Below are positions 2,763 through 43,593 of a stretch of 64,000 bases of DNA, piece by piece. The DNA is taken from positions 111,416 to 175,415 of IMG/VR virus record IMGVR_UViG_3300027850_000002, one strand, 5' to 3'. Each line of letters begins with the position of its first letter. The first letter of the stretch is position 1. The notes beneath the pieces are model-generated. The model was not told the origin of the DNA and ran no database searches. It worked only from the letters and a program-made list of their open reading frames with translations. The DNA comes from a virus. Made by a program: the position numbers and the translations under genes.

Positions 2763-5156
2763 ATGGCCATCCGACCTGTCGTACTTGTTTACCAGGACCT
2801 GGCCACGCCGACGATTACGCCGACGTCGCCAGACCTGAACTGTTTGGTCGTTGGTCCGGCGTTTTGGATCCAGGACTACTTCCAACCCGGCACCACCGAC
2901 TACGCAGACAAGGCCGATATTCAGGTCACGTCTGCGTACGGTGCGCTGGAAACCAGCCCCGCTGCAGCGTTGCCGACGGGGGCCGCCGTGATCACGGTGG
3001 CATCGCCGCCAAACAACGCGGTGGGAGCGCTACTCGACGGAGACAGCGTCCAGATCTACTTCGACCAGGCCCGTGTTCGCATCGCGGGCAAAGGCGTCGA
3101 CGTTGGTGGCGGCGTTCAAGGAACGACCACGGTCCTGACGCCGAACGTGTTCGACACGGCCGAGGGAACTCCGACCACGTTCGCGACGCCTGGTCCCGGT
3201 CGTGCTCTTCCCGGTGACCGTTTGGTCATCGTGGATGCAGGCGCAGTCGTCATCGCGCGCACCGTGCTCACGGTTGTTACGGACACGCAGCTGCTGCTCA
3301 CGTCGGATGTGACCGGCGGTACGTTCGTGCCCGCGGCGAACCAGAGCTGGTACATCGAGCGCCAGGTCAACGACATCCAGATCAACTCGTCGTTCGTTTC
3401 CAGCACCGGAAACATCGTGAAGATCGCTGGTGGCGTCACGCTCCCCGTCACCGGCCAGGGCAGCAAGCCCGTGTCGTACGCGGTCGTGTACGAGGCGTAT
3501 CGCAGCCTCCAGCAGTCGCTGGTCGATCTCGACACCGTCGAGTCGCTGGTGGACATCGAGTCGAAGATCGGTCGTGTCGACGCGCGCAACCCACTCGCGA
3601 CGGGTGCCTTCGTGGCGCTTCAAAACACGACGTCCGTCGTTCAGTTCATCGGTGTCGTGTCGGACGATCTCCAGGGACATGTGTCCGTGCGAGACCATCT
3701 CTCGGCGCGACCCGACGTCTACGCCATCGTTCCGATGACGACGGACATTTCCATCTTCGTGATGTGGAATGTCGACTGTGTCGGTCTCGCACTGCCCGAC
3801 AACGTTCGCGGCCGTCCGCAGCGTTTCCGTGTCGTGATCGGTAGCGGCACGCTGCCCGTCACTAAGACGATCATCGAGCCTTCGGCCACCGGCCAGTCCG
3901 TGCAGCTCGCGGCCAGCGCGCCCACGGCAATCACCCGCCTCACGCTGACCGGCACGCTGAGCTTGGTCACGAACGGCGTGATTCCGGGCGACGTCCTGAG
4001 CGTCACCGTCACCAGCGCTGCGGGTGTTGTTGCGCTCGGTCTGTACCCGATCGGTGCCGTCGAAAATGCGACGATCGTCGAGGTCGACACAACGTCGCCC
4101 TTCGCGAGCGCCGGTGTCGCCAACATCAGCGTCACGATCTTCGAAGCGGACGGTGTGACGGTTCGTCTCGCGTCACAGGCACTGGTCGGCACAGTCACCG
4201 CGACGAGCGACGACCTCTATCTGATCCTCAAGGATCCGAGCGGGACGTTCGTCGTGAGCGGTGTTGTAGCCGGTGATCTCATCAAGATCCCCGTCGACCC
4301 GAACGCGGCCATCGACGACAACAGCGTGTTCGTCACCCTTGTGGTGAACAACATCATCAGCGACCAACGCTTGCAGCTCGTAAATAACGGGCAGGACTTG
4401 TCGACGGCTCAAAATGAGCTGCCGCACGGCGTGAAGCGAACCGGCAGCGCTCTTGTCGGCCTGACGACGATCAACTACCAAGTCGTGCGTACGCTGTCGA
4501 AAAGCCAGCAGGTGACCGAGCTGGTTGCGGTTGCGCAGTCGTTCAACTCCAAGCGCACGATTCTCGTGTGGCCGGATCGTTGTGATGTCGCAGGCGTGAC
4601 CGGCGGCAACAACCAGCCGGGCTACTACCTCGCAGCGGCAGTTGGCGGCATGACTGCAGGTCTGCCGTCGCAGCAGGGGTTCACGAACCTCGGCATCGCC
4701 GGCGTCAGTCAGATCTTCAACTCAAACACGTACTTCACGGACACCCAGCTCACTGACATCTCGAACGGCGGTTGGTACGTGTTCGCGCAGCAGACGACGA
4801 CGTCGTTGCCGTACACCATCCACCAGCTCACGACGGATCCTTCGACGCTCGAGTCGGGCGAATTCTCGGTCGTCAAGAACTTCGACTTCGTGTCGCTGTT
4901 CTTCGTCGACATCGTCGAGGACTTCCTCGGTCAGTACAACGTCACGGTCGACACGCTGACGTTGCTCGGCGCCGCGCTCAACACGGGAGCGCAGCTTCTC
5001 TTGCTGCGTACCGTTGCGAAGATCGGCGCACCGCTGACCTCGTTCACGCTCACCGGCATCAACGTCTCGCCGGCGTCGGCAGACCGTGTGCTCGTGTACT
5101 GCGCAATCGGTCTACCGAAGCCGCTCAACGTCATCGAACTCCACCTGGTGGCATAA
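2763..5156 (+). CDS. Contractile tail sheath protein
   Basis: A 797-residue protein, long for a sheath but usual for large phages. The N-terminus begins with VVLVYQDL and CLVVGPAFWIQDY, as sheath proteins often do. The C-terminal third carries the conserved core, with KRTILVWPD, then GYYLAAAVGGMTAGLPSQQG and the following GFTNLGIAGV, the region that forms the interlocked inner layer around the tube. The middle is a set of beta-rich insertions. Start ATG follows GGAG by 8 bases. It sits upstream of a probable tube gene and a spike gene. The sheath contracts to drive the tube through the host envelope. Confidence 0.85.
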   Translation: MAIRPVVLVYQDLATPTITPTSPDLNCLVVGPAFWIQDYFQPGTTDYADKADIQVTSAYGALETSPAAALPTGAAVITVASPPNNAVGALLDGDSVQIYFDQARVRIAGKGVDVGGGVQGTTTVLTPNVFDTAEGTPTTFATPGPGRALPGDRLVIVDAGAVVIARTVLTVVTDTQLLLTSDVTGGTFVPAANQSWYIERQVNDIQINSSFVSSTGNIVKIAGGVTLPVTGQGSKPVSYAVVYEAYRSLQQSLVDLDTVESLVDIESKIGRVDARNPLATGAFVALQNTTSVVQFIGVVSDDLQGHVSVRDHLSARPDVYAIVPMTTDISIFVMWNVDCVGLALPDNVRGRPQRFRVVIGSGTLPVTKTIIEPSATGQSVQLAASAPTAITRLTLTGTLSLVTNGVIPGDVLSVTVTSAAGVVALGLYPIGAVENATIVEVDTTSPFASAGVANISVTIFEADGVTVRLASQALVGTVTATSDDLYLILKDPSGTFVVSGVVAGDLIKIPVDPNAAIDDNSVFVTLVVNNIISDQRLQLVNNGQDLSTAQNELPHGVKRTGSALVGLTTINYQVVRTLSKSQQVTELVAVAQSFNSKRTILVWPDRCDVAGVTGGNNQPGYYLAAAVGGMTAGLPSQQGFTNLGIAGVSQIFNSNTYFTDTQLTDISNGGWYVFAQQTTTSLPYTIHQLTTDPSTLESGEFSVVKNFDFVSLFFVDIVEDFLGQYNVTVDTLTLLGAALNTGAQLLLLRTVAKIGAPLTSFTLTGINVSPASADRVLVYCAIGLPKPLNVIELHLVA

Positions 5157-9276: not shown

Positions 9277-9435
9277 ATGGCTGAAGACCCCAAATGGGAC
9301 GGTACACCTGCGTTAGGCGTCATCCTTGCGCGGATGGCTGAACTCTACGCACGCGTGGTTCAAGTAGAACTCGCGCAGCAAAAAAAGAACGCGGACCGCG
9401 TCGCTGCAATGTTCACAGAGAGCCCGTCCAAATGA
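9277..9435 (+). CDS. 52-residue hypothetical protein
   Basis: A short gene between the spike and the large structural gene, overlapping the latter by ATGA. The product begins MAEDPKWDGTPALG and then forms one amphipathic helix (ILARMAELYARVVQVELAQQ). Tight coupling on the 3' side and 2-base spacing after the spike support it as a real gene, perhaps a small baseplate component. Confidence 0.55.
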   Translation: MAEDPKWDGTPALGVILARMAELYARVVQVELAQQKKNADRVAAMFTESPSK

Positions 9436-11177
9436 GTACGTGGAACTCCATCAACCCGAATCAGTTGATCCCCAGTAGTGTCGTTGCAGCCGTAACCGCG
9501 ATAGGCGACACCCTCACAAGTGCAATCAGTGCAGCGTCAAATCCGCTCAGTAAATTTCCTTCCTTATCGGCACCGAACGTTCCCGACCCCATCACAGCAG
9601 TCGTTAATGCGATTTTGGATACATTGTCAGGTCTCCTCAAGGCCGGTCGTATTCACACACTTGCCGTACCCATTGTAAAAACGGTTCCTAACAAACCGTC
9701 GCCTCGGTTGCCGTCCACTCTAAACGACCTACAAGCCATGCTTGCAGTGCGATTAGGTCCCGCGTCTACCGCGGAACATGACGCATATACGAACATGGTC
9801 ATGCGTACAGGTGGTAATGCGGGCTTCTACCAAACATTCGCCGCGTCGATCATGGATCCGCAAGACTCCAACAGACCGAAATATGACAACGGTAAAGATG
9901 CCGTTGCGATGACGGTCTTAATGATCGGTGCGCCAAGGTTCTCAAGCATCGCATCAGCAGCATCGACGCTAGACCTTCTAACGCGTCCGACGAGTGACAA
10001 CAGCTTCGTCTCTCGCATCATCCCTGTCCCACAAAATCTAGGTACGAAAGTTGTAGGGTCTACGAAACCTCCGGGAATTGGTGTACGTCTCGATTGGGAT
10101 CCTCCAAAACCAGAGAACACACGTCAATTCTTCCCAGGTCTATCTGTCGAAGTAAAACGTTATGCCGTCATTCGAACAACGGACCCACGCGGAGCACGTG
10201 CACGCATGGTCATGGACTTGTTCAAGACGCAAAAGCTGACTGAAGGTCTAACAACAGGAAAGGCCAAGGTCGTCAAAATCGGGTCGGGCAGAAATACAGC
10301 GTATCTAGATACCGACGCGAGCCTCAAGCCCGCGACCCCCGTCTACTACTTCATCGCGTGGGAATGCACCGTGAAAGAGAACGGGGAGACTGTCACACTA
10401 CCGTTCGATAAACTTTCGAACGTGTCCAAGGTTGCGGTAACGAGTCCTGCTGCACCGCAAACGGGAAGCGCACCCAACTGGGTTGCTACGGACTCGGCGA
10501 TCTCTGCATTTCCAAGTCTCGATAACGCGGCCCGTCGCCTCATCGCAGAGACCCAAGTTCTGCTCAAGCCTTCCGCGAGTCCGCTGTCGCGCATTGATGC
10601 GGCGCTCAAAATATCTAAGGATGCAACTGCACGCTTGTCTGCGCGTTCAACGGAATTGATTGACGACGTCAAGCGGTTGACTGCAGCGCTGTCGGCGCCC
10701 ATTCCCGCGGTCTACGTCACCCAGATGTCGAGCGCTACAGGCGGAACAGCGTTTCTTCTAGCTGAGCTAGCTAAACGTCTCGGCGATACAAGTGACCCTT
10801 CACGCCCCCCGTTTGATAACGGTGAGTATGTGATTGGTGTTTGCTTTGTTGCAGGTGCGCCCCGTCTCGCGGACCTAGCGAAGGTCATCGCATTCTTCAA
10901 GGCGCTATTCGGTCCTGCCAACGCTGCGAATCCGCTACTCGGTCTTCTTGCTTCAATCGACACATTGGTGGCTCAAGCAGAAACGGTAGTTTTCCAGCCA
11001 GACATGACGCCGTTCCCTCCAGGAACGGACCTGACGGCCATCGACCCCGCGACGGGACGGCCTCCAACACTTGGTACGGCGGTGATCGCTGCAGATGGAA
11101 CGCCTGTCGCAGCTGACAGCCCGGACAATCCGAACGCAGGTAACACGAACGTCCCGCCGTCTGCCGAGCGCTGCTAG
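9432..11177 (+). CDS. Large structural protein, probably baseplate
   Basis: A 581-residue protein. The centre (about residues 220-335, VRLDWDPPKPE to PVYYFIAWECTV) has a fibronectin-like beta pattern. Two similar modules flank it, both with TGG, a helix, DNG and GAPR: KYDNGKDAVAMTVLMIGAPRF near residue 150 and PFDNGEYVIGVCFVAGAPRL near 455, so the protein contains a diverged internal duplication. Third positions look less GC-rich than in its neighbours. Position after the spike suggests a baseplate or tail-tip role. Family not recognised. Confidence 0.5.
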   Translation: MSTWNSINPNQLIPSSVVAAVTAIGDTLTSAISAASNPLSKFPSLSAPNVPDPITAVVNAILDTLSGLLKAGRIHTLAVPIVKTVPNKPSPRLPSTLNDLQAMLAVRLGPASTAEHDAYTNMVMRTGGNAGFYQTFAASIMDPQDSNRPKYDNGKDAVAMTVLMIGAPRFSSIASAASTLDLLTRPTSDNSFVSRIIPVPQNLGTKVVGSTKPPGIGVRLDWDPPKPENTRQFFPGLSVEVKRYAVIRTTDPRGARARMVMDLFKTQKLTEGLTTGKAKVVKIGSGRNTAYLDTDASLKPATPVYYFIAWECTVKENGETVTLPFDKLSNVSKVAVTSPAAPQTGSAPNWVATDSAISAFPSLDNAARRLIAETQVLLKPSASPLSRIDAALKISKDATARLSARSTELIDDVKRLTAALSAPIPAVYVTQMSSATGGTAFLLAELAKRLGDTSDPSRPPFDNGEYVIGVCFVAGAPRLADLAKVIAFFKALFGPANAANPLLGLLASIDTLVAQAETVVFQPDMTPFPPGTDLTAIDPATGRPPTLGTAVIAADGTPVAADSPDNPNAGNTNVPPSAERC

Positions 11178-19411: not shown

Positions 19412-19974
19412 GGTCGGAGCGCCGTAATTGCTGCAACGACCCCGCCCCAGTCGTTCGCGGACGTGCCTTCCCACCCATCACGCGTGTTGTAGCTACGACG
19501 GAACAAAACACCGTGACCTTTGGGGTGGTGCGAACACCACTCCACAAGCGTGGACGTCTTGTCTTCGATGAGAAAGTCACCAGACACGACGTGCTTCCGG
19601 CTACTGCGGACATGTAGTACGTCATCTTTGTGAAAGCCGAGGTTCTGAATGCACCACTGATCCCGTTCGTGCATCCAGTGGTTGCCGCCGAACGGCGACG
19701 TCACAGCTAAGACCTCGGCAATCTTACGTAGCTCTTCGACGCCCTCCTTGGCGCCTGGGTAGACCGGAATGCCCAAACACAGACCCGGCGCCTGCATCGA
19801 TTCATAGATGGTCTTGGCGTCGGGCCCTTCGATGCCGAGAGACTTCATGATGTCCCAGTCACCGATGTCTTCAGGCGTGAAACGTTTCCCGGTATGTTGA
19901 AACACAGCTTCCAGACACGGCGTGAGAAAGTCTCCGCAGACTCCGTCGATATCAAGTAGAACACGTGGCTTCAC
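19408..19974 (-). CDS. 5'(3')-deoxyribonucleotidase, HAD superfamily
   Basis: A 188-residue protein with HAD motif I LLDIDGVCGDF (Asp8 and Asp10), motif II Thr92 in VTSPFGG, and motif IV IEDKTSTL. The order, size and the DIDGV start match the NT5C-type nucleotidases found in many large phages, which dephosphorylate deoxynucleoside monophosphates. It overlaps the methylase upstream by ATGA, grouping it with nucleotide and DNA metabolism. Confidence 0.75.
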   Translation of the reverse strand: MKPRVLLDIDGVCGDFLTPCLEAVFQHTGKRFTPEDIGDWDIMKSLGIEGPDAKTIYESMQAPGLCLGIPVYPGAKEGVEELRKIAEVLAVTSPFGGNHWMHERDQWCIQNLGFHKDDVLHVRSSRKHVVSGDFLIEDKTSTLVEWCSHHPKGHGVLFRRSYNTRDGWEGTSANDWGGVVAAITALRP

Positions 19975-20801
19975 GAAGTTGCTCCATAACTGGTGATGAT
20001 CACTTCGGCGACCTTGCCTCGTTTGTCACCTTTGCTGTTGATTGACCGCCCACACTGGACGGTGTCCATACAGAAATCTTGGTAGAGGTCACGGATGTAA
20101 GGTGTGTCGTTGTTTGACAACATGACGTTCGTGCCACGTTTGCGTAGCTCGCGTGAGTACTCTGCCAACTGTTCTTGTTGTTTCTGACCAAAGACATCCT
20201 TGGTGTACGATGTAAAATTAGATGTCTTTGAATGCGGGTCGTAGGGCGGATCGAAATACACGAAATCGCCCGCGGTCGCGGAAGCAGTCGTCAATTCGTA
20301 CGACGTCTTACGTAGACTGACCCTACCCAATACTTGACTCGCGGTGCGTAACGTTGCGGGTTCAAATATTTTGGGGTTCTCGTAGTCACCGCGTGGGACA
20401 TTGAAACCGCCTGCACGGTTCACGCGCCACAGTCCGTTAAAACAAGTCTTGTTCAGGTAGAGAAACGCGGACGCTCGCGCACTGGGATCCTCTATCCATC
20501 CGCCTTCGTTCCAAATGTCACGAATCTCATAGTAATACTTGGGACGAACATGGGCTCGACGGTGCACTTCAAGCATCCCGATGATTTGTTCAACGTCGTC
20601 AGCGACTGCTTGATATGTGTTGATCAAGGCGTCGTTCATGTCGCCAAGCACCGCGTCCTTGGGCTCAAGAGCGAAGAACAAGGCGGCGCCGCCCGCGAAC
20701 GGTTCGAAATAGCATTTGAACGTCTTAGGTAGACGCGCACGCAATTCAGGGAGGAGTTTGGACTTCCCTCCAACCCACTTCACGATAGGCGAGGCCGGCA
20801 C
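19971..20801 (-). CDS. DNA adenine methylase (Dam/D12 class)
   Basis: A 276-residue protein with GTG start. It has the N-terminal KWVGGKSKLLPEL, the SAM-binding FEPFAGGAALFFAL, and the catalytic DPPY at residues 184-187 (VYFDPPYDP), in the order of class alpha N6-adenine methylases. The usual target of this family is GATC, but specificity cannot be read here. No restriction partner is adjacent, so it may protect phage DNA or mark it for regulation. Confidence 0.85.
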   Translation of the reverse strand: MPASPIVKWVGGKSKLLPELRARLPKTFKCYFEPFAGGAALFFALEPKDAVLGDMNDALINTYQAVADDVEQIIGMLEVHRRAHVRPKYYYEIRDIWNEGGWIEDPSARASAFLYLNKTCFNGLWRVNRAGGFNVPRGDYENPKIFEPATLRTASQVLGRVSLRKTSYELTTASATAGDFVYFDPPYDPHSKTSNFTSYTKDVFGQKQQEQLAEYSRELRKRGTNVMLSNNDTPYIRDLYQDFCMDTVQCGRSINSKGDKRGKVAEVIITSYGATS

Positions 20802-27137: not shown

Positions 27138-28532
27138 GTGGAAAATTACCTGAAGATAGCTTTCCTCGACGGAGCGCAGGATGCCCTGTCACGACATGGC
27201 CTCGCTCCCAAGCGGGAGAAATCCATGCTTCGGAAGGTGCTTCCTTGGGCAGCGGCGCTTGGCGCGGGGGCAGGGGCGTACAAATTCTTACGGACGCCAT
27301 CGTTCTCCGCGAACCCGCTCCTTCGGAAGGTGCAACAGCAAGCCGCGAGCAAGGGCTTCCACCGCATCGTCGACGTCACGCCGGACGGAACCGGCGGACT
27401 GTTTCGTCCGGTGGCCAACGCCGAAGGCAAGCTGTCTCCGTGGAACAAGCTGAAGATGTTCCTCAACGAGGGTACGACCGAAGCGATTCCGATCTCGCAC
27501 GCAGGTGACGTTCCGAAAGTCGTCGGGCACAAGGGGCCGCGTCGCGTGCAGGGCGTCACCCACGGGCGGCATGACGTCTTCGGAACCTCCGACGCCGTAC
27601 GTGGCGGCATCGACATCGAGGGGCCGCAAGAGACGATGACAGCGATGAACCGCGTATCCAAGGGCGGCAAGAAGTTCGAAGCAAACCTGTTGAACAAACA
27701 CGCTCCGGGGTCGATGCCCGAGACACATACCGACCTCGGTCAACTGTTCGAAGGTCTACCTGCCGATCGCCAGCAAGCCGTTGCGGAGCTGCAGAGCCGG
27801 GTTCTTTCAAACCACGGCGAGAACGTATTGCTGAAACCGAACCAGGGCTTGGCATCCGGAGGAAAGTTCCCTCGTGCAAACCAGGACTGGAGTTCACAGC
27901 TTCAAGCATACGATGCACACATGGCAGACCCTGCCAAACGCCAAACGTGGCGAGCAGCGAAGCAAGTCGGCGGAAACGAACTGTCGAAATACATGATCGA
28001 CAACGGATTGTATGAAGGTGGCGTTCTCCATCAGGCGCTGCGCAACCCGAAGTCGGTGCTTGCACAGAAACTGATCGAGAATCCATTGGGTGAATGGCGG
28101 GCACACACGATGGCGGGCAGCGTGCCTGCGAACATGATGTTCCCGCGTTTCTCCAAAGGACCGAAGGCCATCGCGGGCGTCATCCATCGTGACAAGGCGA
28201 TGCAGAGTTTTCTCGAGGATACGGTCGCGAAGCTGCCGCCGAAGTATCAGTCGGGGAACTACGCGTTCGATGTGATGCCACACCGCCAACCGGATGGTTC
28301 CATCGGATACAAGATTCTCGAGATGAACCCAACCGAACAAGCCACGGCGACGGCGGCGGGTGGTGGATCTGGTTTCTTGGATCCGTCCACCGTACCGTTC
28401 ACCGGACACTCGCATTACCGCGCTGCGACGGGCCGCCACACGCCGTTGGTGGCGGGCTTGGGCGGCGTCGGCGCCGCGAGTCTCGCAGGTCTCGGCACGC
28501 GCGCGCTCACTCGTGACGAGGACGAACAATAA
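27138..28532 (+). CDS. Possible ATP-grasp-fold protein with shared N-terminal motif
   Basis: A 464-residue protein starting at GTG behind CCTATAATT. The first residues (YLKIAFLDGAQDALSRHGL) carry the motif shared with other probable virion proteins, then a hydrophobic segment. LLKPNQGLASGG near residue 230, EWRAHTMAGSV near 325, YAFDVM near 375 and ILEMNPTEQ near 394 follow the order of nucleotide- and metal-binding elements in ATP-grasp ligases. A Gly/Ala hydrophobic tail closes the protein. Substrate unknown. Alternative: a structural protein with chance resemblance. Confidence 0.5.
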   Translation: MENYLKIAFLDGAQDALSRHGLAPKREKSMLRKVLPWAAALGAGAGAYKFLRTPSFSANPLLRKVQQQAASKGFHRIVDVTPDGTGGLFRPVANAEGKLSPWNKLKMFLNEGTTEAIPISHAGDVPKVVGHKGPRRVQGVTHGRHDVFGTSDAVRGGIDIEGPQETMTAMNRVSKGGKKFEANLLNKHAPGSMPETHTDLGQLFEGLPADRQQAVAELQSRVLSNHGENVLLKPNQGLASGGKFPRANQDWSSQLQAYDAHMADPAKRQTWRAAKQVGGNELSKYMIDNGLYEGGVLHQALRNPKSVLAQKLIENPLGEWRAHTMAGSVPANMMFPRFSKGPKAIAGVIHRDKAMQSFLEDTVAKLPPKYQSGNYAFDVMPHRQPDGSIGYKILEMNPTEQATATAAGGGSGFLDPSTVPFTGHSHYRAATGRHTPLVAGLGGVGAASLAGLGTRALTRDEDEQ

Positions 28533-28992
28533 CCCCGTCGTTCATCCACCGCTGCTTGAAGCGTTGGATGGGCGTCCACCGGCGCAGTTGTCGGCGAACG
28601 CTCGGATCAGCGAGGTAGACAATGTCTTCATCCTCGTCGATCGCATGTACGACGCCGTAATGGTCGTCGTCCAAGCCAACCAGGACCACGTTGCCACGCT
28701 TCAATGCGCGCACGAGGCCTAACCAACTTAGGCGTTCGCGCGGAGCGACCCGCAGGTCACACGAACGCAAGAACCGAACGATCGGTCCCTCCGCGGTGCC
28801 TTCACTCGTGGTGCCGACTGCGTCGAGAACCTCTGTGTAACTAACGTCAGCACCGAAGAACGACGCAATCGCGTAGGTGCAGCAAGGGCCGCACGTGTAG
28901 CGCGTGAACTGAAGCTCGCGTGGAAAGTCGATGTAGCCGACAAGCACTGGGCGCCTCCGAGGCAGGTCTTCGTGAGTGTTCACGGTGATCAT
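28507..28992 (-). CDS. C39-like cysteine peptidase
   Basis: A 161-residue protein; the start overlaps the lipoprotein gene by ATGA. LQFTRYTCGPCCTYAIASFF holds the likely nucleophile Cys34, HYGVVHAIDED the His (111 or 116) and LADPSV the Asp (129), the triad order of C39 bacteriocin-processing peptidases. There is no transporter domain, so it resembles the free-standing C39-like proteins. Its 3' end overlaps the convergent gene by 26 bases. Substrate unknown. Confidence 0.65.
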   Translation of the reverse strand: MITVNTHEDLPRRRPVLVGYIDFPRELQFTRYTCGPCCTYAIASFFGADVSYTEVLDAVGTTSEGTAEGPIVRFLRSCDLRVAPRERLSWLGLVRALKRGNVVLVGLDDDHYGVVHAIDEDEDIVYLADPSVRRQLRRWTPIQRFKQRWMNDGVIVRPRHE

Positions 28993-29366
28993 GACGGCAG
29001 CACGAAGACGGCGGACGTAAAGGTTTCGCAAACTACGACTGCGTGACCATCGCCCACGAACAGCGCGGAGCCTGCTAAAGACCGTGTGACTGTACGACCG
29101 CCCAGTTGACTCGCAGCTCCAACACGCCACGCCGTTAGCTGGAGCAAGTCCGAAGCTGTTTTGCCTGGGTACAGGTGAATGGCGTACCCGTTGGAACACG
29201 TCACGGTCGCCGTCGACACCATCGACACAGCACCACTGTCGGTAACGGCCGTGCCACCGCCGTCTATCGCTACACTGCCGGCATCAGGAAGTATTTCCTC
29301 TCGACCATCGTTCCGACCTTCGACACCGCAACCGAACATTAAAGCGAGAACCAGGACGATCTTCAT
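28989..29366 (-). CDS. Putative lipoprotein
   Basis: A 125-residue protein with a short signal (MKIVLVLALMFGCG) that ends in Phe-Gly-Cys, compatible with lipid attachment at Cys13, then a polar Gly/Ser region and a beta-rich C-terminus with two Cys. It is paired with the C39-like peptidase. Possible superinfection-exclusion or envelope protein; not proven. Confidence 0.5.
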   Translation of the reverse strand: MKIVLVLALMFGCGVEGRNDGREEILPDAGSVAIDGGGTAVTDSGAVSMVSTATVTCSNGYAIHLYPGKTASDLLQLTAWRVGAASQLGGRTVTRSLAGSALFVGDGHAVVVCETFTSAVFVLPS

Positions 29367-30124: not shown

Positions 30125-30388
30125 CTACGCGTCTGCGGGCGGGTTCGCCTTCGCGAACGCCTTGAACACGCGCTTGTACTCAGCCTTGTTCTTGAGCTTG
30201 AGCTGAGCACTGCCCGCGAGATTCTGCAGCTGTTCAGCAGCAAGCTCACTGAGCACATCCATCGACGCGTCCGGATCACGGCCTTCGCTGAGGGCGGACG
30301 CGAGATCGACAGGGAGGTTGATGATGATCGGCGTCTTGCCGATCTTGGTGGTGAACTGCGCAGTGATGGTGGACTTGGTCTTAGGCAT
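30125..30388 (-). CDS. Hypothetical protein
   Basis: An 87-residue protein with a beta start (STITAQFTTKIGKTPIIINL) and helical C-terminus rich in Lys/Ala. Its end abuts the convergent frameshifted gene. Function unknown. Confidence 0.5.
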   Translation of the reverse strand: MPKTKSTITAQFTTKIGKTPIIINLPVDLASALSEGRDPDASMDVLSELAAEQLQNLAGSAQLKLKNKAEYKRVFKAFAKANPPADA

Positions 30389-30400
30389 GGCGATGTTTAT

Positions 30401-30895
30401 CTAGCAACCCGATGCAGTCGTCAACTCTTGATCCTGCCATTGCAGCTGCTTCACTTGACGTTTCACATGCGCCGCGTACTCAAGGCAGTTGAACGTTCCG
30501 CCTGCTGAGCCGTCGTGCACAGACAAGAGCAGGCTGCAGTGGTCGACCATCCACTCGTTACGTCGTTGCATCTTCCAAGGCTTGTACGGTCCCGCGGAGA
30601 CGACGTGGATCTCTTTTGCTTTGTTCAGGAGTGCTCGGTACCGCTCTTGAGAAGGCAGTGGCCAGTTCTCGCCCCACCCATCGCAAGGCAGCGCCGCGAT
30701 GAACGGTATGCCCAGCTCGACGCATGTCTCGGCTGCCCAGGTATCGACACCGAGTGCCATGCCCGAGATTGCGTAGACTGGCCAGTTCGCGCAAAGGGCA
30801 TTACGTAACGCAATACGGATGCACAATACGACGGGGTGAAGAGGGTCCCAGCCGCCCAACTTGTCTGGACGATGTCCCGTGAATGCAACAATCAC
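30401..30895 (-). CDS. YpsA/DUF1273-type SLOG domain protein
   Basis: A 164-residue protein; GTG start gives VIVAFTGHRPDKLGGWD, the signature of the YpsA branch of the SLOG superfamily. AISGMALGVDTWAAETCVEL and the C-terminal DGSAGGTFNCLEYA are the other two nucleotide-binding stretches. SLOG proteins bind NAD- or nucleotide-derived ligands and are found in conflict systems. It lies next to macro-like and RyR genes. Its start overlaps the divergent membrane protein gene by 24 bases. Confidence 0.7.
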   Translation of the reverse strand: MIVAFTGHRPDKLGGWDPLHPVVLCIRIALRNALCANWPVYAISGMALGVDTWAAETCVELGIPFIAALPCDGWGENWPLPSQERYRALLNKAKEIHVVSAGPYKPWKMQRRNEWMVDHCSLLLSVHDGSAGGTFNCLEYAAHVKRQVKQLQWQDQELTTASGC

Positions 30896-31093
30896 GCGTG
30901 GTACCGTCCGAGGACGTTCACTCTCATTGCAGTTATTGTTGCCGTTGGTGTCATTGTGTGGGCGATCAACTACGCCATCCCGATGGAGCCGATGTTCAAG
31001 CGGGCGGTTACCGCGGTGGCTGTTGTATGTGTCGTACTTTACGCGCTGAAGGTCTTTGGCCTGTTCACAGGCCACATGCGTTTCCCGGGCTAA
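30872..31093 (+). CDS. Thivi_2564-like two-span membrane protein
   Basis: A 73-residue protein with two membrane spans (TLIAVIVAVGVIVWAINY and AVTAVAVVCVVLYALKVFGL) separated by IPMEPMFKR. This W...N..IPM...(K/R)....V....L.(V/L)FGL layout matches a family of small membrane proteins known from bacteria and phages. It is the only plus-strand gene among minus-strand neighbours and overlaps the SLOG gene at their 5' ends. Confidence 0.55.
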   Translation: MSRECNNHAWYRPRTFTLIAVIVAVGVIVWAINYAIPMEPMFKRAVTAVAVVCVVLYALKVFGLFTGHMRFPG

Positions 31094-31437
31094 GGCTCAT
31101 TCCGCCAGCCCGGCGGCAACCTGCAGTTCGTAGGAGCGGACTCGAACATCGGAGCGATTTCAGCTTCGGTGAAGCCTGCGAGTCCGCAACCAATCTTGAC
31201 GACCTGGAACTCCAGTTCGGGGTGTTCGTGCGCGTACGCGACGAACGTTTTGACGGACGACGCGACGTCGTCGAGAGGGCGTACACGAAGGTTCGCGTCC
31301 TTGGTCGGAATTGCGTAGGCCCTGCTGGTGCGGCCTTCGCCGACGCCGTAGACCGCGCCGTAGGTCTCGCGTGCCTCGAGCGCGGAGCCCTTGCCGTGGC
31401 GACCGGCGAGGTTGGAACCGAAGACGAAGATCTTCAA
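31090..31437 (-). CDS. Macro-domain-like protein (A1S_2505 family)
   Basis: A 115-residue protein with IFVFGSNLAGRHGKGSALEA at the start, AYAIPTKD in the middle and VVKIGCGLAGFTEAEIAPMF near the end. This pattern defines the A1S_2505 phage family, related to macro domains that bind ADP-ribose derivatives. It lies between SLOG and RyR genes, overlapping the next gene by ATGA, which supports a joint role in nucleotide-derivative metabolism. Confidence 0.7.
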   Translation of the reverse strand: MKIFVFGSNLAGRHGKGSALEARETYGAVYGVGEGRTSRAYAIPTKDANLRVRPLDDVASSVKTFVAYAHEHPELEFQVVKIGCGLAGFTEAEIAPMFESAPTNCRLPPGWRNEP

Positions 31438-31781
31438 GGTCCCGTCATCCTCACACCGTGCAGCCGCCCGACATCCCGCACCTGCTTGACCACGTTCTCC
31501 CAGTGCTTGGAGCCGCTTCGCGTCAGCTCGCCTTCGACGATCCCGGGGTGTGTCTTTTTTTCTTCGTCCAGGACGCGGTCCCAGCGCCAGCCCTGCAACG
31601 TCATCGCGAGGAACCAGGCGCTGCGTGTGAAGTCAGGGCTGCCTGTGTTCAATGCAGCGTCTGCAACTGCGTAGGCGGCGACCCGACGCCAATCCGGCGC
31701 CTCAGTCCACGGGACTGGATCGAAGTCGTGCTCGAGAGCGGCCTTCGCACACGTCGTGAAGTACTCGTCGTACGGCCTCAT
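31434..31781 (-). CDS. RyR-domain-like protein
   Basis: A 115-residue protein whose last 60 residues (MTLQGWRWDRVLDEEKKTHP then ELTRSGSKHWENVVKQ) match the bacterial/phage RyR domain: GW.yg..kd..kk.hP......L. Its first half is a helical unit (WRRVAAYAVADAALNTG) similar in position to the next gene, so the two are probably paralogues. Coupled by ATGA on both sides. Confidence 0.6.
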   Translation of the reverse strand: MRPYDEYFTTCAKAALEHDFDPVPWTEAPDWRRVAAYAVADAALNTGSPDFTRSAWFLAMTLQGWRWDRVLDEEKKTHPGIVEGELTRSGSKHWENVVKQVRDVGRLHGVRMTGP

Positions 31782-32206
31782 GCCGGGCGCGGGGTGACCT
31801 GAAGGCTCTCACGCACATTCAGCGCCGTGCTCCCCATCACTGGGTGGTTGAGCGCCATCGCAACCGAGAGCACCGTGCTCACGAACAGGAAGTCCTTTGC
31901 CTTCTGTTCTTCGGTCAGCTCGTCGTAGGGAACGAAGCACGGATGCTCCTTCTTCGTTGGGTCTTTCACCGCGCCGAACTTCCAACCGTCCGCGGCCTTC
32001 TCTGCCAACCACGACTCGTGGGCCGCGCGAGGATTGTTCCCTGCGAACACGCCGTCAACGCCGTTGATCGCGCTCTTACGCTGCCAGTCCTCGGCTGCGC
32101 TCCAGGAGGGTTGGGTGAAGTCGCCCAGGGCCCTGCAGTAAGTCGCATTAACCTCGTGCGCAGCTTCCGCGCAAATCAATCGAACCTCTTTACACGTTCG
32201 CGGCAT
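31778..32206 (-). CDS. RyR-domain protein
   Basis: A 142-residue protein. AAHESWLAEKAADGWKFGAV followed by DPTKKEHPCFVPYDELTEEQ is a clear RyR domain, a short domain found in phages and in bacterial conflict systems and originally named from ryanodine receptors. It is thought to recognise a small ligand. It overlaps the GIY-YIG gene by 17 bases. Confidence 0.7.
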   Translation of the reverse strand: MPRTCKEVRLICAEAAHEVNATYCRALGDFTQPSWSAAEDWQRKSAINGVDGVFAGNNPRAAHESWLAEKAADGWKFGAVKDPTKKEHPCFVPYDELTEEQKAKDFLFVSTVLSVAMALNHPVMGSTALNVRESLQVTPRPA

Positions 32207-32807
32207 TTCGCATTCTCTCGTGGTAGGCCTTCGTCGCCGCGCTCAATTTGGCGCGTTTCTCCGGTGTACATTTTTGGGCAGCCATACTCAATTTGGCACG
32301 ATGTTCGTCGGACTGCGGTCCGAGTTTTTGTCCGCGCTTCATTAGACTGACCTTGGCGCGCACATCAGGACGCAGCATGGGGTTGCGTCCAATCAACGCA
32401 GTACGTTGTTTCGCGCGAAACGCCTCGGATCGAGGCGGACGTGTTCGTCCCGCGTTCGCCGCGCTGATCTTGGCACGTGTTTCGGCTGAAACGACTTTTC
32501 CGGGTGTGCCTTGACCGCCGTCAGTCGTGTTCGTTAACCGACAACCGATGGTACGAAAGAATTTAATCCAATACCGCTCAGCGGTCGCCCATTCCGTCAA
32601 CGGGACTTCCTGCAAAAGTAGAATGATCGGAACCATCGTCAGTCGACGGAGTACCTCTAGCCATTGAGCGCGATGGAATGTCTTGTGTTTCTCGCGCAGG
32701 TGGCAAGCGAGACGTCTCTGAAGTGTCTTGTTCGTCCAACCCACGTAACGGATCTCCCCGTCGTGGGAGTCCACTAGCACGTAGATTCGAGCAATCATCG
32801 ACTCCAT
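32190..32807 (-). CDS. GIY-YIG homing endonuclease
   Basis: A 205-residue protein with IYVLVDSHDGEIRYVGWTNK at the N-terminus (the GIY...YIG core as IYV...YVG), a catalytic-type Arg (LQRRLACHL) and a Glu in TEWATAERYWI. The C-terminal half has NUMOD3-like repeats (SAETRAKISAANAG, SDEHRAKLSMAA, TPEKRAKLSAAT) that bind DNA. Free-standing genes of this type are selfish elements in phages. It overlaps the RyR gene by 17 bases. Confidence 0.75.
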   Translation of the reverse strand: MESMIARIYVLVDSHDGEIRYVGWTNKTLQRRLACHLREKHKTFHRAQWLEVLRRLTMVPIILLLQEVPLTEWATAERYWIKFFRTIGCRLTNTTDGGQGTPGKVVSAETRAKISAANAGRTRPPRSEAFRAKQRTALIGRNPMLRPDVRAKVSLMKRGQKLGPQSDEHRAKLSMAAQKCTPEKRAKLSAATKAYHERMRNAANV

Positions 32808-32885
32808 GTTTACCTCGCAAGCAAGGCCAGGTGCAAGGGGTCTCCATGCCGGAGAGCCATCCGTCGTCGTACGGAGACACGGACA

Positions 32886-33488
32886 TCAATCAGCGTCAGA
32901 AACGCCGCAAACCACGCACACATCGTTGGAGAAACGATGAATCGCACAGGACTCAGGAGAAACGAGCGTGGAGTGTTGAGCACCGCCGAAGTCCTGTGAT
33001 GCGATGTCCGTAGGGGCGTCGAGCATGCCCATCAGCGACTTGAACCGTGTCATCTGATCGGGTCCCATACGGTCAACGACGATGCCGGCCTCCCGCAGGA
33101 AATCGGGAACATCGGCGCTCTTGCCGTAGCGGCTCTCGTAGTGCTCGTCGTAGCAGACCCTCGAGATGCCCGCATTGACGACGCGCTTGGCACAATCCCA
33201 ACACGGAGTGACCGTTACGTAGAGCGTGCAGCCCTCCGCGAAGCGGCCCGCGAAATCGATCGCGTTCGACTCGGCGTGAAGGGTTCGTACACAGTGCCCT
33301 TCGACCATCTGGCAACCAACCTCATCGCACGATGGCTGGTGTCGGGGAGCGCCGTTGTAGCCTGTGGCCACGATACGGTGCGCCGAATCGGTGATGATCG
33401 CGCCAACGTGTTTGCGAGGGCAACTTGCCCGCATCGCAGCAACGTAAGCGAAGCGCATCATGTAGGTATCCCAATCAGGGCGAGACAT
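32886..33488 (-). CDS. dCMP deaminase
   Basis: A 200-residue protein with the zinc site HAE at 71-73 and PCWDC at 95-99, and extra Cys residues (54, 59, 66) as in T4-type dCMP deaminases that carry a second zinc. It converts dCMP to dUMP for thymidylate supply. A C-terminal addition with CAIHRF and CVVCGV could hold another metal and is unusual. It starts in a TGATG overlap. Confidence 0.8.
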   Translation of the reverse strand: MSRPDWDTYMMRFAYVAAMRASCPRKHVGAIITDSAHRIVATGYNGAPRHQPSCDEVGCQMVEGHCVRTLHAESNAIDFAGRFAEGCTLYVTVTPCWDCAKRVVNAGISRVCYDEHYESRYGKSADVPDFLREAGIVVDRMGPDQMTRFKSLMGMLDAPTDIASQDFGGAQHSTLVSPESCAIHRFSNDVCVVCGVSDAD

Positions 33489-41636: not shown

Positions 41637-42145
41637 GGTTGCGGCTCCCATACTCCATTGGTGACGTGACCGTGAGCGCCGCACGTACGGCACTTCAAGC
41701 TCGGCGTCAGCGTGAGCGGTTCAACGCAGATGATCTGGTGGACCGGAGCCCCGTCGAGAGGTCGCACGGCGCAGAACGACTGGCACACGGCGTTCGAGTT
41801 GCGTGCGTCGATGTGCGTGTGCAGCCAGCCGATGAGGATCTCGTCTTTATCGAGCACGGCCTCGAACGTGTGGCCATGTCCCAGCTCAAGTGCTCCGACG
41901 TGGACAAGCGGCTCCTTGGATGTAGGCTGCGCCTTCGTGGGATCATCACGCCACGCGGGCCTGCCATTGATCTCGTCGAGGTCATCGGCGGTGCGCGCGA
42001 TCGGCTCCTCGAACCTTTGCTTACGCAAGCAGTCACTGCACAACGGGCGGTGTGCGAGCGGCGTGTTCGGGACATGATAGAGACGCTCGTCGATGCGCTT
42101 GCAGTCGCACTCGCCGACGCCGACGTAGACCGGACGCTCCATCAT
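41633..42145 (-). CDS. Zinc-site protein of unknown function
   Basis: A 170-residue protein with three metal-type clusters: CDC near residue 13, CSDC near 36, and a C-terminal CRTCGAHGHVTNGVWEP. The last resembles the end of DUF6527-like proteins. ILIGWLHTHIDARN and the closing LTLTPSLKC suggest a compact domain. Overlaps both neighbours. No function can be named. Confidence 0.45.
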   Translation of the reverse strand: MMERPVYVGVGECDCKRIDERLYHVPNTPLAHRPLCSDCLRKQRFEEPIARTADDLDEINGRPAWRDDPTKAQPTSKEPLVHVGALELGHGHTFEAVLDKDEILIGWLHTHIDARNSNAVCQSFCAVRPLDGAPVHQIICVEPLTLTPSLKCRTCGAHGHVTNGVWEPQP

Positions 42146-43533
42146 CAGCGCCGTCCCGGCAACGCGAACGCGGCAGCGGCGGCTTCCTCACCCAGCGAGG
42201 CCCACTTCGGATTCTGTGGTGGGCTGTGTTCTTGGATGAGGGGCTTCGCGTTGCCGAACGCCTGGCCCATCAGGTTGCCGGGACGGGCCGGGTCCTTGAT
42301 GTAGTTCGTGAACGCGTGGTTCATGCCGTGCTGGTGCGCAGCTGCAGCAGCTTCGCCGCGCTCTATCACATCAGTACGAAGGCCCGTGGGCTGACCCGGC
42401 TTGATCGGAAGGTAGTCCACGGCTTTGCCACCGACGATGTTGCCTTCGTGCACGTCGTGCAGACGCATGCCGTTGGGACGCTCGCCGCGCACGCGCGTGG
42501 CCGCTTCGAAGCTGGACGTCGCGCCCGGGTGATCGGTGGCGTGCTCGTAGAAGTGCGCGGGTCCGATCTTTGTCGGGGTCTCACCCTTGTACTGCGCGAC
42601 GTACGGGTTGCCGCGCAGTGCGGTTCCGGCCTCCGCCTTGTTCGCGACCATCAGGGGACCGGAGATGCCTTGCGGGTCGTAGACCTTGCGGACCGCGATG
42701 CCGTGCTCGGGGTGCGCGACGAGCGTCGACGTTCCCTCCATGCCGCTGCCGATGTGTTTGATCTGGCTGCCGGCCGCAGACGGCTTGAGCACGCCGGGCG
42801 TGGTAGCGAGCCGGTTCGCTGCACCCATGTTGCCGGTGTTGATGTGCTGCTGGATTGCACGCATGCCTGCGCGCGCAGCCGTCTTCTCCGTTGAGAACGA
42901 TGCGGCCTTCTCGCCGAGCGACTTCTCGCGTCCGGTCAGCGGGATCTCGTGGTGATCGCGTGCCGCTACGTGCGCGTGGTCGATCGTGAACTTTGCATCG
43001 AACGCGGGAAGGTGACCTTCAACGCGCCCCTTGTCGCCGAGGTAGCCAAGCGTAATGTGCGGGGTGAAGGTGTGGAGATCGGACGGGTCGATACCGTGCG
43101 TAGAAAGAGCACGCGACATGTCGACGTGGAGGTGTTCGAGGCCTGGCGCGTCGAGTAGCGCGACCAGAGCAGTCGAAGGCTTGCCGCCGCTCGAGGCGCC
43201 ATCGAAGTAGCCCCAGCCTTGGATCTTGGCGTCGATGGGTTCGGTCTTTTCGCCGACCTGGCGAAGCGCGGAGAGTGCGGCATGTACCTTCTCGGGTGGA
43301 TGGTCCTCGGCGGGCTTGCGCGTGTAGACCAACGTGACGTGGTCAATGTCCTTGTGCTTCGACGCATCCGGGATGACCTTCCTCTGGATTTCCCGAAGGT
43401 TGTCAGCGACATGCTCGGGCACGCGAACGTGCACGAAGAACGTCTTTGGATCAGTCGAAATCCTCGCAGTCTTCACCTGGCTGGAGGCCAGAAGAAGCTC
43501 ATCGAGCACCGCGGCAAACGAGACGGTTCGCAC
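42145..43533 (-). CDS. 2H phosphoesterase fused to a kinase-like domain
   Basis: A 462-residue protein with GTG start behind CCTATAATT. Residues 25-195 carry the two HxT motifs of the 2H superfamily: HVT at 65-67 (DHVTLVY) and HIT at 159-161 (FTPHITLGYL). Residues about 258-380 look like a phosphotransferase/kinase fold: IGSGMEGTSTLV as glycine loop, VRKVYD as the strand with Lys, and RLHDVHEGNI (359-365) as the catalytic H-D...N, then VDYL. 2H enzymes hydrolyse or ligate 2'-5' and cyclic phosphodiesters; the T4 anti-CBASS protein Acb1 is one. The end is Ala-rich and disordered. Confidence 0.65.
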   Translation of the reverse strand: MRTVSFAAVLDELLLASSQVKTARISTDPKTFFVHVRVPEHVADNLREIQRKVIPDASKHKDIDHVTLVYTRKPAEDHPPEKVHAALSALRQVGEKTEPIDAKIQGWGYFDGASSGGKPSTALVALLDAPGLEHLHVDMSRALSTHGIDPSDLHTFTPHITLGYLGDKGRVEGHLPAFDAKFTIDHAHVAARDHHEIPLTGREKSLGEKAASFSTEKTAARAGMRAIQQHINTGNMGAANRLATTPGVLKPSAAGSQIKHIGSGMEGTSTLVAHPEHGIAVRKVYDPQGISGPLMVANKAEAGTALRGNPYVAQYKGETPTKIGPAHFYEHATDHPGATSSFEAATRVRGERPNGMRLHDVHEGNIVGGKAVDYLPIKPGQPTGLRTDVIERGEAAAAAHQHGMNHAFTNYIKDPARPGNLMGQAFGNAKPLIQEHSPPQNPKWASLGEEAAAAAFALPGRR

Positions 43534-43539
43534 GGGGAA

Positions 43540-43545
43540 ATTATA
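43540..43545 (-). promoter_or_regulatory. TATAAT -10 element, leaderless geometry
   Basis: On the minus strand CACCTATAATTTCCCC ends 6 bases before the GTG at 43533. It is divergent from the plus-strand CCTATCATT at 43586, the two hexamers being 42 bases apart, with a run of nine A between them. It probably drives the whole tail run down to about 34 kb. Confidence 0.65.
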
Positions 43546-43587
43546 GGTGTTCCGGCCGTTTGCACCGGAACCAAAAAAAAATCCACC

Positions 43588-43593
43588 TATCAT
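43588..43593 (+). promoter_or_regulatory. TATCAT -10 element, leaderless geometry
   Basis: CACCTATCATTACATGATG: the hexamer ends 3 bases before one ATG and 6 before the next. Same variant (TATCAT) as at 11210. An A-tract (43573-43581) lies just upstream. Confidence 0.6.

Follow-up and report, generated by a model that had tools for sequence, protein, structure and literature searches.

RyR1, RyR2, a macro-like protein of the A1S_2505 family, and a YpsA-type SLOG protein are encoded by four neighboring minus-strand ORFs of a phage (Table 1), an arrangement described in an earlier note on this DNA and borne out by the ORF list. The window, which is the whole stretch of 64,000 nucleotides that was analyzed, corresponds to bases 111416–175415 of a 175,415-base virus record that has no near relative at the DNA level among 50,697 phage records.

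Organization of the locus

The trio of RyR1, RyR2, and the macro-like gene is held together by four-nucleotide overlaps. They had all been read as ATGA; this is correct for RyR1/RyR2, while the RyR2/macro overlap is TTGA. The SLOG gene had been taken to adjoin the trio in a compact cluster, which does not hold, since 194 bp lie between the macro stop and the SLOG start. As first called (30401–31075), the SLOG ORF was over-extended, and its first 60 codons are antisense to a plus-strand ORF of the Thivi_2564 family. The corrected start, GTG 30895, is matched by the start codons of the SLOG homologs in two related loci (ATG in L010 and GTG in L170), in both of which the SLOG start overlaps the stop of the preceding gene by 4 nt.

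The 194-bp gap is occupied by the Thivi_2564 ORF on the opposite strand, whose start codon is uncertain (30836 or 30872). This ORF is absent between the corresponding genes of L010, L170, and L092 and is probably an unrelated insertion. A GIY-YIG/NUMOD3 endonuclease gene sits between the dCMP deaminase gene and RyR1, overlaps the RyR1 start with its last 17 nt, and is absent in L010, L170, L175, and L092. Additionally, a short frame (MSPYDDGWLxGMxIPC..RGKH) is kept between the dCMP deaminase and RyR genes in the window, in L010 (~9919–10000), and in L170 (~9280–9370); it is possibly a small gene or a leader.

Table 1 Features of the RyR locus and of its surroundings, in window positions
Feature	Position	Strand	Description
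D12-class adenine methyltransferase	19971–20801	-	
Peptidase_C39-like protein	28507–29199	-	close to the cassette
Small conserved protein MPKTKSTITAQFTTK..	30125–30388	-	downstream neighbor; also in L092, L170, L175
YpsA-type SLOG	30401–30895	-	164 aa; corrected start GTG 30895
Thivi_2564-family membrane-protein ORF	30872 (or 30836)–31093	+	between macro and SLOG; NF041949 E 5e-13
A1S_2505/PHROG 2072 macro-like protein	31090–31437	-	115 aa; TTG start
RyR2	31434–31781	-	115 aa; diverged protein with a probable RyR fold
RyR1	31778–32206	-	142 aa; stand-alone RyR (R12, PF02026) domain, RyDEP homolog
GIY-YIG/NUMOD3 homing endonuclease	32190–32807	-	PF01541 2.6e-6, PF07460 1e-5
Short frame MSPYDDGWLxGMxIPC..RGKH	~32810–32889	-	
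dCMP deaminase	32886–33488	-	upstream neighbor; PF00383 7e-23
2H phosphoesterase-domain protein	42145–43593	-	482 aa; PF13563 1.5e-14, motifs HVT85/HIT179

RyR1 and the RyDEP pocket

A preprint of May 2026 (PMC13232231) describes RyDEP, an RyR enzyme/sponge with which a phage defeats Thoeris. Phage RyR domains bind or cleave 2′/3′cADPR and overcome this defense; Thoeris is blocked in vivo by RyDEP and by two sponge-type homologs (PMC13232231). Pectobacterium H7 and Ruegeria H4 are the sponge-type homologs, and two of the eight homologs assayed formed no stable complex with either ligand (PMC13232231). The phage that encodes RyDEP, DyoEdafos (L337), also carries a DprA-like gp89 (10387–10803), ~5 kb from the RyDEP gene.

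RyR1 is matched by PF02026 (E 1.8e-13, 50.9 bits, above the gathering cut-off of 27.4) and is aligned by BLASTP to RyDEP with 39% identity over 54 aa (E 3e-13). For the residue comparison the RyDEP sequence was taken from L337:4664–5080. In the alignment, H75, W78, H100, and D117 of RyDEP correspond to H63, W66, H88, and D105 of RyR1, and the catalytic dyad and the ligand residues are all retained. A pattern scan with the single RyR1 sequence gave no usable matches, and homologs had to be collected with alignments; the equivalents of H75, W78, H100, and D117 are invariant in 42 further viral homologs. In the Pseudomonas phages 8P (L006 4010–4870) and USP_25 (L007 3992–4822), the RyR domain forms the N-terminal part of a longer protein that is encoded amid structural genes, a siting by which this protein may be packaged into the virion.

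Q54, a pocket residue of RyDEP that was mutated by its authors (PMC13232231), was taken as the mark of the glycosidase subtype, and RyR1 carries Ser (S45) in its place. The same Ser is found in 42/42 viral homologs and in the RyR protein of Pectobacterium phage Nepra; Pectobacterium phage homologs are ~53–55% identical to RyR1. As this Ser is shared with viral homologs including a Pectobacterium phage RyR, RyR1 would more probably be a sponge than a glycosidase, judged from one residue and from the genus-level match to the proven Pectobacterium-phage sponge.

RyR2, a paralog without the catalytic dyad

RyR2 stays under the cut-off of PF02026 (E 0.16, 12.7 bits against 27.4), and its kinship is visible in a match to phrog_5154 (E 4.5e-7), in PHROG matches that are those of RyR1, and in a BLASTP alignment to RyR1 (30% over 90 aa, E 4e-9). 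The top structural matches of its AlphaFold2 model (pLDDT 93) are RyR domains, namely human RyR3 Repeat12 and a Bacteroides RyR protein. Their Z of 6.3 is low for a bundle of helices, and the Foldseek E is 0.1; the Foldseek copy of the PDB predates 35TM, the RyDEP structure.

The five RyR2 sequences (window, L010, L170, L175, and L092) form one clade on a long branch with a support of 100/100. None has a His at the position of H75, which is taken by Arg in four and Phe in one, and the position of D117 is Trp in all five. The equivalents of W78 and H100 are retained throughout, and the first helix is ~9 residues shorter. The earlier suggestion that RyR1 and RyR2 arose by local duplication gains no support from the tree, in which the RyR2 clade does not stand beside the RyR1 of its own lineage, although the branches are long and the bootstrap values unsettled. 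Between the window and L170, RyR2 shows a dN of 0.12 and a dS of 0.97, a ratio that points to purifying selection, and hence to a gene that is maintained and not to a decaying copy.

The macro-like and SLOG proteins

The macro-like protein is assigned by NF049995 (A1S_2505; E 3e-41, 140 bits against a cut-off of 45) and by PHROG 2072 (E 2e-41), and the Pfam Macro model (PF01661) does not detect it. An AlphaFold2 model built with 62 sequences reaches a pLDDT of 95. TARG1 with ADP-ribose ligands is its best match (Z 11.4, 2.5 Å over 108 aa), and the macro domains of DarG follow with a Z of about 10.5. In a profile alignment with a weak sequence match (E 0.9), K46 falls on the Lys of the TARG1 motif LITKK and A87 on the Asp of GCGLD, which we take to be the catalytic K84 and D125. 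Both K46 and A87 are invariant in the 62 sequences of the family. The model thus presents the A1S_2505 protein as a TARG1/DarG-type macro fold in which the nucleophile position is predicted to be kept and the second catalytic residue to be gone. In Rhodobacter phage RcBigEagle (L009), a DprA-like gene (974–1342) lies ~2.7 kb upstream of the A1S_2505 gene (3998–4366), which is annotated there as an ADP-ribosyltransferase.

The SLOG protein matches PF06908 (YpsA) with an E of 5e-14 as first called and of 2e-14 with the corrected start (54.3 bits against a cut-off of 27.7). A search of bacterial genomes gave distant relatives only, mainly from Clostridia and cyanobacteria. Viral SLOG-Macro associations and fusions have already been read as countering ADPr signals (PMC9503650).

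Gene content within and outside the lineage

Loci were retrieved for each family, and five diverged loci that share one site make up the lineage. The site is bounded by the dCMP deaminase in 5/5 loci and by the small MPKxKTKFTA protein in 4/5. Its content varies from RyR1, RyR2, macro, and SLOG in the window to RyR1, RyR2, and SLOG in L010; RyR1, RyR2, another gene, and SLOG in L175; RyR2, another gene, and SLOG in L170–L173; and RyR2 with a macro::SLOG protein in one frame of 292 codons in L092. RyR2 and SLOG are accordingly present in all five loci, RyR1 in three, and macro in two. A scan of viral sequences with the RyR2 family gave 7 contigs, every one of which carries SLOG, the scan patterns being derived from those same sequences.

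Overlaps of four nucleotides join RyR1, RyR2, and macro in the window, RyR2 and SLOG in L010, and RyR2 and macro::SLOG in L092; they were re-formed with differing partners as ATGA, TTGA, and GTGA. A second, unrelated macro::SLOG fusion is found in L229, and RyR1 and macro overlap as a pair in L036/L073, which are likewise unrelated. As the wider locus, with the dCMP deaminase and the small downstream protein, is likewise syntenic, the co-retention may be plain inheritance.

The association outside the lineage was measured within 10 kb after removal of the own lineage and merging of near-duplicates, with dCMP-deaminase loci (n = 58) as the control. SLOG was found at 0/73 RyR loci, and macro at 2/73 RyR loci compared to 1/58 in the control. 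A general RyR-SLOG or RyR-macro module beyond the lineage is rejected by these counts. SLOG was found at 6/65 macro loci (control 1/58, p = 0.08) and macro at 6/61 SLOG loci (control 1/58, p = 0.07). This macro-SLOG link is statistically weak, yet two fusions and earlier work (PMC9503650) speak for it. The RyR and A1S_2505 families each occur in hundreds of phage records, and in the annotated phage regions examined their genes occur without each other. The earlier note had tied its reading to a repeated co-occurrence of the domains in other genomes, which is seen in part: five diverged loci keep RyR2 with SLOG, two of them with macro, while outside the lineage there is no enrichment of RyR in the vicinity of either SLOG or macro.

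Proposed function and alternatives

The proteins of the run are members of families known to bind alarm molecules of the ADP-ribose type. Because RyR1 closely resembles RyDEP, the run of genes is probably a counter-defense cassette, and we lean toward a phage cassette that would act against NAD-derived (ADP-ribose-type) immune signals and be anti-Thoeris in effect. Its observed basis consists of homology, fold, conserved pocket residues, purifying selection, the overlapping-gene architecture, and macro::SLOG fusion. The ligands, the sponge mode, the joint action, and the anti-Thoeris outcome are what we infer from it. The earlier proposal that the genes sense or remove a small nucleotide signal as anti-defense has a strong precedent for RyR (PMC13232231), and RyR1 keeps the H75, W78, H100, and D117 set; for the whole cassette it is partly supported.

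In the proposed mechanism, RyR1 would bind the 2′/3′cADPR made by the host TIR protein of Thoeris in a RyDEP-type pocket and take this signal out of circulation; of the two modes, a high-affinity sponge is more probable than a glycosidase. RyR2, with the catalytic His and Asp gone and the adenine-stacking Trp and phosphate-binding His kept, would be a binding-only partner that possibly serves another ADPR isomer or completes a RyR dimer as its second half. Linear ADPR derivatives would be bound or processed by the macro protein of TARG1 type, and the ligand of the YpsA-type SLOG would be a further adenine-nucleotide or ADPR messenger. The net effect of the cassette would be a lowered level of free ADPR-type immune signals. 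A more speculative version, which we think rather doubtful, sees in RyR2 the first RyR subunit that is dedicated and non-catalytic. RyR2 would pair with RyR1 (as a split form of the R1-R2 tandem of animals), with SLOG or macro::SLOG, or with both kinds of partner, and so form a multi-ligand sponge for ADPR signals. The conserved core of this sponge would be RyR2-SLOG, and RyR1 or macro would be modules that can be exchanged to set its specificity.

Counted against the cassette are the lack of RyR enrichment outside the lineage, a macro protein without the TARG1 Asp, and the absence of an NAD-resynthesis partner of the NARP1 kind. In the 175-kb record, which may be a fragment and was covered beyond the locus by reading loci and by bulk scans of a part, PF04095 (NAPRTase/Namat, as in NARP1-type NAD salvage) was not found, and neither was a homolog of NADAR, KptA (PF01885), or Tad2, nor the TIR (PF13676) signal maker of Thoeris. 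The locus itself has no SIR2-SLOG or TM-macro ThsA fusion. The 482-aa 2H protein reaches PF23474 (Acb1) at the borderline, just under the cut-off in one scan and at the cut-off in another. By these matches it is a candidate for a second counter-signaling (anti-CBASS-like) gene, which would fit a phage that invests in counter-signaling.

The strongest rival is an accessory-gene hotspot of independent genes, in which RyR1 alone would be anti-Thoeris, and macro, SLOG, and RyR2 would be separate "moron" genes in a spot beside the dCMP deaminase, with no joint action. We regard it as a serious possibility, if an unlikely one. It agrees with the counts outside the lineage and with a spot of varying content, into which the GIY endonuclease, the Thivi_2564 ORF, and unrelated genes of 92 and 124 aa were inserted too, and most RyR and A1S_2505 genes of other phages are alone or distant from each other (in the records of Pectobacterium phages CB3 and CB4, for instance, at about 4 kb and about 42 kb). 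The four-nucleotide overlaps that were re-formed with different partners argue against it, as do the constant RyR2-SLOG pair of the lineage and the two independent macro::SLOG fusions.

Improbable, in our view, is a housekeeping role, in which macro and the 2H phosphoesterase would clear ADPr-1″-phosphate and cyclic phosphates from RNA repair, and SLOG would take part in nucleotide metabolism. Macro domains do work on Appr1p in RNA repair (PMC9503650). The same phage also encodes the 2H protein with its two HxT motifs and has the dCMP deaminase as a neighbor of the locus, but the 2H gene lies 10 kb off with its Acb1 match, and KptA is missing from the record. To our knowledge, RyR domains have no link to RNA repair, which also counts against this role. 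Very improbable is a phage-borne defense or superinfection exclusion, in which RyR or SLOG would sense a signal and trigger an effector against other phages: SLOG domains serve as Thoeris sensors, the SLOG protein weakly matches DprA-like ShosA antitoxin models, and a membrane-protein ORF adjoins, but that ORF is on the opposite strand and missing in relatives, the TIR signal maker is absent, the cassette has no recognizable toxin or NADase effector, and the PADLOC models match nothing in it apart from weak ShosA.

For the counter-defense cassette, the locus shows how phage RyR domains, recognized as Thoeris inhibitors only in 2026, may be built into a larger unit with macro and SLOG. RyR2 is a natural RyR paralog without the catalytic dyad and is useful for parting binding from hydrolysis. 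The locus is also a concrete test site for the predicted neutralization of ADPR-type immune signals by SLOG and macro proteins of viruses.

Comparison with known systems

RyDEP (Mycobacterium phage DyoEdafos gp78, PDB 35TM; PMC13232231) is, like RyR1, a stand-alone phage PF02026 domain with the H75/W78/H100/D117 set. Compared to RyDEP, RyR1 has Ser for Q54, is not part of a NARP1 operon, and has as partners a macro protein, SLOG, and a second RyR that is catalytically bare. The RyR protein of Pectobacterium phage Nepra has the same Ser54/His/Trp/His/Asp set as RyR1, and, unlike at the window locus, its gene has neither another RyR gene nor SLOG annotated next to it. The NARP1 operons with RyDEP likewise place an RyR gene within a short NAD/ADPR-related operon, with the difference that their NAPRTase-type Namat has no counterpart in the present record.

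TARG1 (OARD1/C6orf130) and the macro domains of DarG share the fold and the invariant Lys with the macro-like protein, which is much shorter than TARG1 and has Ala at the Asp125 position in all aligned sequences. The YpsA-clade SLOG and the macro::SLOG fusions (L092 and L229) are held in common with the viral YpsA-like SLOG and SLOG-Macro fusions surveyed before (PMC9503650). RyR domains are unmentioned in that survey, whereas the window lineage ties SLOG to an RyR paralog. Phage RyR, macro, and SLOG proteins directed against signals are of kinds already known or predicted. What the locus adds is an RyR subfamily with a dead site (RyR2), the coupling of RyR2 through four-base overlaps to SLOG or macro::SLOG, and a combination in which RyR stands with both macro and SLOG.
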